Part shown: piece after piece, positions 2 to 2,200 of the stretch
Position numbering within the stretch: the first letter of the stretch is position 1
Layout: each line of letters starts with the position of its first letter
Virus record (IMG/VR): IMGVR_UViG_3300029319_000606
Location: 1 to 21,404 of that record
Length of the DNA stretch: 21,404 nt
Direction: 5' to 3' (one strand)
Origin: a virus
Notes under the pieces: generated by a model
What the model saw: only the letters and a program-made list of their open reading frames with translations
Databases searched by the model: none
What the model was told of the DNA's origin: nothing
Made by a program: the position numbers and the translations under genes

Positions 2-499
2 GATCATCTTTGCCTTCGTGCATTAGATTGGGTTTTTTCTGGATATTGGAAAAAAGAAGGTAAGGTTAAAGTTAACGAAACTAAAAACTCTATCGAATTT
101 GATGGATTCTCTGATCCATATATGCCAGGTGCTAACTTCTTGCGTTGTCTAAGAAACGCTGCTACCAAATGGAAGTTAGGTAAAGACGTTCTTCGTTCTG
201 TTGTTGTTACTAATGATCCATTAATCGAATATGAAGGATCAAAAGATGCTTTGGAAATGTACACAAAAGACCAAAGTTATTTCTCTAATACAGCATTTAC
301 ATCAAGAGGTGTTTGGGTTCAAAGATTATTATTTCCAGATTGGAAATGTACTTTTGAACTAATGGTTGATGATGAGATATTAAGTGTATCTCAGTTAAAT
401 AGAATCATTACTATGGCAGGAAAAGCTGAAGGATTAGGTACTTGGCGACCTAGATTTGGTAGATTCTCTGCATCTGAACTAGTGGAGATGGCTGACTAA
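2..499 (+). CDS. Conserved phage protein of unknown function, 5' end outside window
   Basis: The frame is open from base 2, so the gene starts upstream of the window; the ATG at 122 is internal. About 165 residues are visible. The C-terminal half reads FSNTAFTSRGVWVQRLLFP, a hydrophobic strand (FELMVDDEILS), then GLGTWRPRFGRF near the end. The pattern of an R-x-W near a strand followed by GLGxxRPRFGRF is one I recall from conserved phage proteins of unknown function. I do not assign a role. Its TAA stop shares a base with the next ATG (TAATG), so the two genes are very probably translated together. It lies on the plus strand, opposite to the late genes, and probably belongs to the early or replication half of the genome. 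Confidence 0.8.
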   Translation, partial: DHLCLRALDWVFSGYWKKEGKVKVNETKNSIEFDGFSDPYMPGANFLRCLRNAATKWKLGKDVLRSVVVTNDPLIEYEGSKDALEMYTKDQSYFSNTAFTSRGVWVQRLLFPDWKCTFELMVDDEILSVSQLNRIITMAGKAEGLGTWRPRFGRFSASELVEMAD

Positions 500-987
500 T
501 GTCAAATCCAAGAATAGATGGCATTGATTGGAGATCACTTCAAAAAGGAGATGTCATCCCAGAGGAACATATCCTTGATTATTGGAATACTTGTTTTCCA
601 GATAGCGAATGGGATAAGTTCAGCATGGTTACTGTTAAAACTAACATCGAAAAACTTCGTGAAGGTATTAACAGACCTATTATTCTCAAAGAGGTAAAAG
701 GAACTCTGGTTGTGCTTACTGATAAAGAGGCTGTTGATTATTCAGCAGCCCAAGCCAATGCTGGTATAAAAAAACATCGTAGGCATACTCGTAGACTATT
801 TACTCACATAGATGCCACTAAATTGGATCAAGCTAAGAAACGTGATTTAGAAACCAAACAAATTCATCATGCGTTCATAGCTTCTGCTGCTGATGGTGCT
901 AGAAAAGAATCATTGCAGCTACAAAGAAAAGGAGAAAGACTACCTAAGTCTTTGATTGAAAAGTCAGACTTTAAAAAATCTTCTTAG
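499..987 (+). CDS. Hypothetical basic phage protein, last gene before the RNA array
   Basis: A 162-residue protein starting at the ATG that overlaps the previous stop (TAATG). No domain recognised. The N-terminal half (IDWRSLQKGDVIPEEHILDY) looks globular, with a short beta segment near residues 60-75 (RPIILKEVKGTLVVLTDKEA). The C-terminal half is alpha-helical and very basic (KKHRRHTRRLF near residue 90, KSLIEKSDFKKSS at the end), so nucleic-acid binding is possible but not shown. It ends with TAG at 985-987. No terminator follows directly; the next convincing plus-strand terminator is at 2163-2200, so the mRNA probably carries the whole structured array as a 3' untranslated tail of about 1.2 kb. 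A link between this basic protein and the array RNA is an attractive guess without direct evidence. Confidence 0.8.
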   Translation: MSNPRIDGIDWRSLQKGDVIPEEHILDYWNTCFPDSEWDKFSMVTVKTNIEKLREGINRPIILKEVKGTLVVLTDKEAVDYSAAQANAGIKKHRRHTRRLFTHIDATKLDQAKKRDLETKQIHHAFIASAADGARKESLQLQRKGERLPKSLIEKSDFKKSS

Positions 988-1084
988 CGACTCTTCTTGA
1001 CTCTTAACTCTTCTTACCGCTTTAATTTGACTTCATCCCAAGCATCTCTCTGTGATTTTTGATAGTTTAACGTAATTTACTGCA

Positions 1085-1150
1085 ATCGTTATGGGTATTA
1101 CGATAAACCCTTCTCAACATCTCTTGTAGGTGCAAGAACCAAAGAGATGA
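1085..1150 (+). repeat. Array module 1
   Basis: ATCGTT box at 1085-1090. Hairpin A: GGGT 1093-1096 pairs ACCC 1107-1110 around a loop with TTACGATAA. Hairpin B: CATCTCTT 1118-1125 pairs AAGAGATG 1142-1149 (8 bp), with inner stem GGT 1129-1131 / ACC 1138-1140. This copy has a different inner loop (GCAAGA) and is the most diverged. Confidence 0.65.
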
Positions 1151-1215
1151 CATTGACGCTCCGCTCGGTTCTTTCCCGCTACATCATTCAGTTCGCATCA
1201 ACGTCCATCAACTCC

Positions 1216-1280
1216 ATCGTTATCAGTTTACGAATAAAACTGTTTTTAACACCTCTATGATTTAATCGTTTGCGAGGTGA
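1216..1280 (+). repeat. Array module 2
   Basis: ATCGTT box at 1216-1221. Hairpin A: CAGTTT 1224-1229 / AAACTG 1237-1242, loop ACGAATA, followed by TTTTT. Hairpin B: CACCTC 1250-1255 / GAGGTG 1274-1279, inner GAT 1259-1261 / GTT 1268-1270 with two G-U pairs. The inner loop contains TTAATC. Confidence 0.7.
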
Positions 1281-1396
1281 CCACGTTTCTTTTCGATTAG
1301 CCGTAACTCACTGTGGCTCGCTGTCGATCAACTTTTCTCTTTTACCATTTTGCTCATTGTCACTCGTACTGGCGCATTTCTATTCGGCTCAAATCA

Positions 1397-1461
1397 AACG
1401 TTGTAAGTCTTACGATAAACTTTCCTCAACATCCTTCTGGGTTAATAGCCTTGAAAGATGA
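1397..1461 (+). repeat. Array module 3
   Basis: ACGTT box at 1398-1402. Hairpin A: AAGT 1405-1408 / ACTT 1419-1422, loop with TTACGATAA. Hairpin B: CATCCTTC 1430-1437 / GAAAGATG 1453-1460, seven of eight positions paired with one C-A mismatch. Inner stem GGG 1439-1441 / CCT 1449-1451 includes one G-U pair. The inner loop is TTAATAG. Confidence 0.65.
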
Positions 1462-1573
1462 TAATTCGCCTCACATCTTTTCGGATCAAGTTGATTAACC
1501 GCAACTCTTCACGCTTTGATGTGGCTCACGGCAAATTGGCTCGATTTTTTTCATTACTTTTAGACTCGACTCT

Positions 1574-1638
1574 TACGTTATGAGTGCTACGACAAACTCT
1601 TTTTAACATCTTTACGACTTAATAGGTCTGCAAGATGA
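1574..1638 (+). repeat. Array module 4
   Basis: ACGTT box at 1575-1579. Hairpin A: GAGT 1582-1585 / ACTC 1596-1599, loop with CTACGACAA, followed by TTTTT. Hairpin B: CATCTT 1607-1612 / AAGATG 1632-1637, inner GAC 1616-1618 / GTC 1626-1628, loop TTAATAG. Confidence 0.7.
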
Positions 1639-1764
1639 ATATCATCTCACTTTGATTCGAGTTGACTTAACGTGCTGTGACTTTTTGCTACTCCGAACAG
1701 ATTGACTTTATGCCGTTTGGCTCGCTTTCCCTCATTGTACCTCGACTTCATGTATCGTTTAGCT

Positions 1765-1830
1765 ATCGTTGTCAGTTTACGATTAAAACTGTCCTTAACA
1801 CTTCTATAACTTAATAGGTTTGCGAAGTGA
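1765..1830 (+). repeat. Array module 5
   Basis: ATCGTT box at 1765-1770, with an extra ATCGTT just upstream at 1754-1759. Hairpin A: CAGTTT 1773-1778 / AAACTG 1786-1791, loop ACGATTA. Hairpin B: CACTTC 1799-1804 / GAAGTG 1824-1829, inner AAC 1808-1810 / GTT 1818-1820, loop TTAATAG. Confidence 0.7.
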
Positions 1831-1832
1831 CT

Positions 1833-1849
1833 ACGTTACGATTAAACGT
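1833..1849 (+). repeat. Extra hairpin A-like element after module 5
   Basis: ACGTT 1833-1837 pairs AACGT 1845-1849 around the loop ACGATTA, the same seven bases as the hairpin A loop of module 5. It starts four bases after hairpin B ends. It may be a partial duplication. The stem is short, so confidence is modest. Confidence 0.4.
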
Positions 1850-1945
1850 TTCTCGTTTCAACGCACCTTCGCTCGTAACTATTCTTAGACTTTCACTTCC
1901 ATTCCCTTCGAAACCATCTACCTCAACTTGACTCATCTCTAATCA

Positions 1946-2008
1946 ATCGTTTAAGGTATTACGTTAAACCTTTTTAACACCTCTATGATTTAATCGTCTG
2001 CGAGGTGA
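1946..2008 (+). repeat. Array module 6
   Basis: ATCGTT box at 1946-1951. Hairpin A: AAGGT 1953-1957 / ACCTT 1968-1972, loop with TTACGTTAA, running into TTTTT. Hairpin B: CACCTC 1978-1983 / GAGGTG 2002-2007, inner GAT 1987-1989 / GTC 1996-1998 with one U-G pair, loop with TTAATC. Confidence 0.7.
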
Positions 2009-2011
2009 AAA

Positions 2012-2031
2012 TCGACTTGATTCGACTTGAT
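2012..2031 (+). repeat. Tandem 10-bp direct repeat in the last spacer
   Basis: TCGACTTGAT occurs twice head to tail (2012-2021 and 2022-2031), followed by the similar TCGGATTC. Related GATTCGAGTTGACTT-like text follows module 4, so this is probably local slippage within the diverged spacer rather than a separate element. Confidence 0.6.
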
Positions 2032-2154
2032 TCGGATTCTTGCAGCTTCAGTTTATTCGGTTCTATGTGACTCCAATTCAATCGCCTCAAAACAAATTAT
2101 TACCGCTTGACTCGCTTTAACGTATTTTCGCTCTTTTCGACTTCACTCAAATCA

Positions 2155-2200
2155 ATCGCTTGCCAGTTCCACGATTAAGAACTGGTTTTCTTTTTCTTTG
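2155..2200 (+). terminator. Partial seventh module acting as plus-strand terminator
   Basis: ATCGCT (2155-2160) stands where the ATCGTT box would be. Then CCAGTTC 2163-2169 pairs GAACTGG 2179-2185 (7 bp) around CACGATTAA, which contains the array's conserved hairpin A loop. The run TTTTCTTTTTCTTT follows at once on the plus strand; there is no matching T-run for minus-strand transcripts. There is no hairpin B. The loop holds the TAA stop (2175-2177) of the convergent minus-strand gene, so the late and plus-strand transcripts meet here. Confidence 0.7.

Follow-up and report, generated by a model that had tools for sequence, protein, structure and literature searches.

The locus described here raises the question of what is encoded by a gene-free stretch of repeated hairpin modules at the meeting point of two convergent gene sets in a viral genome. 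It lies in a stretch of 21,404 nucleotides of DNA (IMG/VR record IMGVR_UViG_3300029319_000606), referred to below as the window. Taken as a whole, the evidence makes it very probable that a cyanophage VIPR system has its guide-RNA array here.

The array and its genomic setting

Six full two-hairpin modules were located by nhmmer on the plus strand, at positions 1083-1150, 1214-1280, 1395-1461, 1573-1638, 1763-1830 and 1944-2008, together with a seventh, partial copy (2153-2185, plus strand) that consisted of hairpin 1 alone, without hairpin 2. The modules spanned 1083-2185 (plus strand), between the two convergent gene sets, and no gene was present between 988 and 2174. The original prediction had described the six modules and the partial copy, the gene-free stretch, the ATCGTT or ACGTT box, the TACGA loop and the TTAATAG/TTAATC loop, and all of these features were found as described. 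The late genes of the window, on the minus strand, encoded a lambda-J-like tail protein, an NlpC/P60 protein and tape measure proteins. Among the relatives of the array-adjacent gene, found in Prochlorococcus and Synechococcus phages, the closest with a name came from an AG-345 single-cell virus and from Prochlorococcus phages such as MED4-184 and P-HS2; the window was therefore assigned to a cyanophage.

A search of IMG/VR in which the flanking genes served as queries yielded about 45 loci that carried the array, with one to seven modules each; it was always located directly 3' of the homolog of the gene at 499-987, on the same strand. The modules were chimeric, with types of hairpin 1 and hairpin 2 combined differently between phages. 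The whole window gave no match to Rfam at gathering score, and neither a tRNA search nor a distant BLAST comparison of the array with phages gave anything useful. In the L085, L084 and L133 records the accessory gene and the array were closely similar to those of the window, but the late gene that faces the array (2175-2816 in the window) was strongly different (28-39% identity), which suggests exchange at the junction between the array and the late genes.

Both hairpins showed covariation. The 56 distinct self-complementary stems of hairpin 1 had a mean length of 5.9 bp, compared with 4.0 bp when the 3' strands were exchanged, a difference that is partly built in, since only units with a stem of at least 4 were detected. 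For hairpin 2, 16 double-changed cells were observed compared with 5.8 in shuffled data (0/500), and pairing was 94%, compared with 83% after shuffling. The AUCGU:ACGAU pairs of the potential pseudoknot were conserved, with covariation no greater than in shuffles. The view that this was an undescribed structured RNA array accordingly holds in part: the array is conserved, covarying, on the plus strand and outside any Rfam family, but its kind is known, namely VIPR.

The spacers are phased pentamer tracts

The spacers between modules were tandem pentamers with an exact 5-nt period that showed no drift up to lag 60. The match rate over 56 non-redundant spacers was 0.34-0.38 at multiples of 5, compared with 0.285 in shuffled sequences, and at all other lags it was at or below that of the shuffles. 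A phase model gave up to 22.8 bits in the array (plus strand) and a maximum of 2.9 elsewhere in the window, with the signal confined to the plus strand; this model had been trained on spacers that included the window's own, and the training-free lag test was taken as the primary evidence. Of 133 spacers, 112 had their pentamers in a fixed phase relative to the point where hairpin 1 begins; the end of hairpin 2 set no such phase.

Across 284 tracts the pentamer consisted of any base (N), K (T or G, 87.5%) and Y (94%), followed by two free positions (NN), with the consensus [Y][T/G][C/T]-NN and a triplet that was mostly YTC. The tracts of the window contained 13-29 pentamers each, most of which fitted well. 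When look-alike tracts were compared, changes at the two NN positions (0.13/0.12) were below those at the three triplet positions (0.25/0.16/0.15), and substitutions of the third triplet base were almost exclusively between C and T.

These properties bear on a reading in which the hairpins form a stand-alone structured RNA array, acting as a decoy, a sponge or a 3' stabiliser, and the spacers are filler. Conserved and covarying hairpins in a region that has no gene and lies between convergent 3' ends are what such an array would look like. It is nevertheless very unlikely, given a spacer period that is exact and phase-locked to the tail, the class-restricted substitutions in the spacers and, as described below, a RAMP-family gene beside the array in the relatives examined and integrase motifs decoded from the guides. 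The roles that had been proposed earlier, a decoy, 3' protection of an mRNA or a packaging or replication signal, overlook the tracts, the RAMP-family gene and these motifs.

The purine-poor composition of the spacers (A 19, C 27, G 14 and T 40%), with C in excess of G, had prompted consideration of Rho-dependent termination. This candidate was dropped because cyanobacteria are generally considered to be without Rho and because a strict 5-nt phase is unexpected of rut sites. Integron attC sites, IS200-like ends and origin or packaging signals were likewise dropped, given the 5-nt period and the RAMP gene.

Boundaries of the RNA units

The array started with a tract and ended with a hairpin 1 that lacked hairpin 2 and was followed by a T-rich run. 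In phage SUSP1, as read from the sequence, a hairpin-like leader stood before the tracts and a tail of the pseudoknot type after them. From this layout and this order the unit is most naturally taken to be hairpin 2, tract and hairpin 1, that is, a 5' hairpin, 13-29 pentamers and a 3' tail. Mutual information was highest between hairpin 2 and the downstream tract (0.58, compared with 0.38 between hairpin 2 and the hairpin 1 of its own module), yet all parts were partly linked, and the boundary is therefore supported rather than proven. On this best reading, each module of 63-66 nt, which had been proposed as the unit, straddles two RNAs: its hairpin 1 is the 3' tail of one guide, and its hairpin 2 is the 5' hairpin of the guide that follows.

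Seven putative guide RNAs, all on the plus strand, were delimited in this way. Guide RNA 1 comprised a tract at 988-1085 (19 pentamers, 15 of which fit N-K-Y-NN), beginning directly after the stop codon of the gene at 499-987, and a 3' tail at 1083-1110 made up of hairpin 1, the ATCGTT box and a possible pseudoknot; unlike guides 2-7, it had no 5' hairpin. Guide RNA 2 had its 5' hairpin (hairpin 2) at 1118-1149, its tract at 1151-1216 (13 pentamers, 12 fitting) and its 3' tail at 1214-1242. The corresponding parts of guide RNA 3 were at 1250-1279, 1281-1397 and 1395-1422, and 11 of its 23 pentamers fit in one register, with an internal one-base slip. Guide RNA 4 followed with a 5' hairpin at 1430-1460, a tract at 1462-1574 (18 of 22 pentamers fitting) and a tail at 1572-1599, and guide RNA 5 with a 5' hairpin at 1607-1637, a tract at 1638-1765 (24 of 25) and a tail at 1763-1791. 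For guide RNA 6 the hairpin was at 1799-1829, the tract at 1831-1946 (16 of 23) and the tail at 1944-1971. Guide RNA 7 had a 5' hairpin at 1978-2007 and the longest tract, at 2010-2155 (27 of 29), and its 3' tail at 2153-2185 was the former partial copy. The T-rich run, at 2186-2202, directly followed this tail and could be the terminator of the array transcript.

Several variants were observed among related loci. An ortholog of guide 3 in L112 kept a single register, and the shifted form was present in L120; register slips may be tolerated or may be a sign of a decayed guide. In another cyanophage subclade (L176, L180, L168) the sequence AATTTTTTGTCTTAGC stood between units in place of hairpin 2, and the CTTAGC in these separators repeated the stop-codon context of the accessory gene. 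In the GC-rich L131 and L132 loci, a tract-plus-tail unit was present on each side of the accessory gene, on the Vipr side and after it.

A RAMP-family gene beside the array

The gene fragment at 2-499 (plus strand) encodes the 3' part of a RAMP-family protein, Vipr, that is predicted to bind guide RNA (phrog_4652, E=1.4e-21); about 46 N-terminal residues lie beyond the contig end, and the protein encoded by L086 was used as its full-length relative. The AlphaFold model of this relative (pLDDT 79.6) matched Csm3/Cas7 RAMP proteins in the PDB by Foldseek (best E=1.9e-5), with 38 matches at an E-value of 0.001 or better. By BLASTP it was 30% identical to the SUSP1 protein (E=1e-23); both belonged to phrog_4652, and the motif GLGTWRPRFGRF was common to the two. 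The SUSP1 phrog_4652 gene is presumably the Vipr gene of the published work, judging from the layout of the locus.

The gene at 499-987 (plus strand) overlaps that of Vipr in an apparent operon, and its basic, 162-aa product is, from its position, a candidate Vipr-accessory protein (Vap). Its similarity to the SUSP1 neighbour gene was weak (hhalign probability 2.6%, E=0.018), and comparison with the neighbour genes of Gordonia and Mycobacterium phages revealed no homology. The suggestion that this basic protein binds the RNA was a close guess; the likelier RNA binder is the RAMP protein encoded at 2-499, with the basic protein at most accessory. Names can thereby be suggested for two PHROG families without an assigned function: phrog_4652 (Vipr) and phrog_5926, the family of the SUSP1 neighbour gene.

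A RAMP-family gene was found alongside the array in the relatives that were examined. The locus itself is accessory: phrog_4652 was present in 8 of 14 related records searched and absent from the marker-bearing records G007-G010, G017 and P-HS2, although IMG/VR records may be incomplete. In the L094 record a TAG stop codon interrupts the Vipr gene (G006:7496-8030), and decay of VIPR therefore seems to occur.

Two other systems were considered for this gene neighbourhood and rejected. Class 1 CRISPR-Cas was set aside on three observations: the modules diverge, the spacers are gapped pentamers, and there was no cas match among the window proteins scanned. Type III toxin-antitoxin was set aside because the neighbours of the array encode a RAMP protein and an unassigned protein, with no ToxN, CptN or TenpN toxin gene.

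A changed triplet in the cyanophage loci

VIPR was reported in a preprint in 2026 and was proposed as a forerunner of CRISPR (PMC13142463). Its parts are Vipr, a RAMP protein with an RRM core and a G-rich loop that phages encode, the accessory gene vap, and RNAs termed vrRNAs (PMC13142463). As described there, a vrRNA consists of 9-16 pentamers, in which a GGY scaffold alternates with a variable NN, and ends in a structured tail that forms a pseudoknot in the SUSP1 clade; base pairing between the NNs and DNA passes over one base each time, usually the codon wobble base, and VIPR is directed at rival phages and satellites. The main text of that paper makes no mention of cyanobacteria.

In the SUSP1 locus, GGYNN tracts flanked a pair of genes on either side, and the tails had the form GUAG-GUCUCA-CUAC-AUUAAAA-UGAGAC. 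In 14 other Vipr loci of phages and bacteria, from Felixounavirus, Gordonia and Mycobacterium phages, Pseudomonas, Thiocystis and others, GGY tracts were present in 11 and no clear tract was seen in L205, L206 and L209. The loci of the cyanophage clade used NKY, including the GC-rich L131 and L132, in which K-C was nearly fixed. In a tree of Vipr proteins in which the three tract-unclear loci were labelled GGY, the cyanophage proteins formed one group with 100/100 support. Since the triplet of the cyanophage tracts is NKY rather than the GGY of type II VIPR, the locus was not filed as type II. The NKY triplet is new with respect to the GGY loci compared here, but the wording of the published work, which gives all types GGY/NN "or a related consensus", may already cover it (PMC13142463).

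In a further reading, the region is a degenerate pentanucleotide satellite or recombination-site array, in which slippage generated the period, the hairpins are recombination or integron-like sites, and the shuffling of modules is their footprint. The free recombination of hairpin 1 and hairpin 2 types between phages fits this reading. We regard it as scarcely credible, since the tails and leaders covary as folded strands, the Vipr gene predicts the presence of guide tracts, and the NNs follow the dinucleotide frequencies of codon positions 1 and 2 rather than one repeated word.

What the guides read

The NN frequencies matched those of codon positions 1 and 2 in the genes of the window: the misfit, in nats per NN, was 0.04, compared with 0.13-0.72 at other pentamer offsets, and the match was 69% sense and 21% antisense. 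Coherence of codon phase within single guides was weak, with 19 of 500 shuffles as good. When the NNs were decoded as codon positions 1 and 2, the box II motif of tyrosine recombinases, [FL][TV]PYxLRH[GSR]Y[AS], was obtained from several independent guides in related phages, on both strands.

The arrays of L114, L116 and L184 directly adjoin a gene for a 405-aa divergent, recombinase-like protein with a weak match to PF00589 (L114:5860-7077, L116:2972-4189 and L184:2036-3253; minus strand). Against this recombinase, 13 of 115 independent guides scored above the 99.5% permutation level (0.6 expected), and ten scored above every order permutation (top score 49.5 compared with 28.5); for 12 control proteins, zero to two guides exceeded the 99.5% level. 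The matching guides came from about 15 related contigs, in both orientations, and fell on three boxes of the one recombinase: box I (GLRPxE), box II (LRHxYS) and box III (MGHxLxxHxRxY). When 2,221 ORFs were scored, the 405-aa recombinase took the first two places and three of the first four. By permutation, the box I motif occurred 3 times (0.014 expected) and the box II motif 6 times (0.06 expected); these motifs were noticed in the same data before testing, yet are canonical for the tyrosine recombinase family. On the DNA of the three recombinase genes a skip of one base scored 20, compared with a maximum of 14 for skips of 0, 2 or 3, and the skip-1 register was the one that skips the wobble base. 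The presence of the recombinase beside an array, with sister guides decoding to the same family, is possibly an immunity-versus-attack arrangement.

The integrase match is at the level of the family, the best whole guide matching at 30 of 46 bases. Three gapped-pattern scans of IMG/VR revealed no near-exact DNA target, the single match, L225, failing to extend, and none was present in a local set of 3.4 Mb; fixed-length target searches of 1.5-3.4 Mb of related contigs showed no overall excess of skip 1. The decoded peptides fell below the length that hmmscan or tblastn can use. The true targets may reside in satellites or in prophages of host genomes. Guide 5 of the window (1638-1765) and guides at L118:6444 and L119:1149 decoded to a common peptide, EEKAE[FL]YR[RK]EYRGAP[IV]TEQI[FL], a putative second target protein.

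None of the window's own guides that were tested decoded to the 405-aa recombinase. This result, and the lack of an intact target in the IMG/VR scans, would fit a VIPR-derived array that has been put to another use, such as self-regulation of the phage or control of host genes, and does not act on rival integrases. We consider such a use unlikely, as guides from about 15 related contigs hit three boxes of a recombinase and the published VIPR targets are rival phages and satellites (PMC13142463).

In the favoured reading, a guide-RNA array directed against rivals, Vipr would bind seven RNAs made from the array, each with a 5' hairpin (except the first), 13-29 pentamers and a structured 3' tail. 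The pyrimidine-rich triplet (N-K-Y, mostly YTC) would be the scaffold held by the protein, and the NNs would be the part that reads DNA, each passing over one base, the codon wobble base, before the next. Since the guides of sister phages appear to be aimed at the catalytic boxes of a tyrosine recombinase, the array probably serves to keep the integrase of competing phages or satellites repressed when these co-infect the cell. Processing of the RNA, RNP formation, DNA binding and repression are proposed by analogy with the published VIPR work (PMC13142463).

We lean towards the view that in the cyanophage lineage the triplet has changed from GG-pyrimidine to pyrimidine-K-pyrimidine, so that one half of the code, the part held by the protein, can be rewritten with no change to the one-base-skip frame, and that the arrays are multi-guide arsenals against all three boxes of rival phage or satellite integrases, on either strand. 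The clade with the rewritten scaffold would then offer a natural experiment that bears on the reading of gapped guides by RAMP proteins, as well as an orthogonal system for engineering. It would also place RNA-guided virus-virus warfare in apparent phages of marine picocyanobacteria. The integrase boxes decoded here provide a testable hypothesis on what cyanophages fight over.

Comparison with known systems

The RNAs of type III toxin-antitoxin systems (ToxI/CptI) are tandem units with compact, pseudoknot-like folds; the array shares the tandem layout and possibly the fold. The cyanophage units differ in that they hold pentamer tracts of about 100 nt and have a RAMP protein, not a ToxN-type nuclease, as their neighbour. 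With class 1 CRISPR-Cas (Cas7/Csm3) the system shares the RAMP fold and an RNA built from a variable guide and a conserved handle; class 1 systems have near-identical repeats, contiguous spacers and a cas operon, whereas the cyanophage array has gapped pentamers instead.

The closest likeness is to type II VIPR, described for the SUSP1 and Pseudomonas fulva prophage clades (PMC13142463). Shared features are a phage-encoded two-gene locus with a Vipr of phrog_4652, pentamer tracts that alternate a conserved triplet with a variable NN, and, judging indirectly from the decoding of the guides, the one-base skip on the codon wobble base (PMC13142463); the structured 3' tail resembles that of SUSP1, its pairing segments apparently following one another in the same order. 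In contrast to the GGY triplet of type II, the cyanophage triplet is N-K-Y, mostly YTC, and the tracts, with 13-29 pentamers in the window, are often longer than the published 9-16 (PMC13142463). The cyanophage loci also carry up to seven or more guides in one 3' array, their clade has a 5' hairpin with a TTAATAG loop between tail and tract, their accessory gene is not clearly homologous to that of type II, and their decoded targets are tyrosine recombinases.
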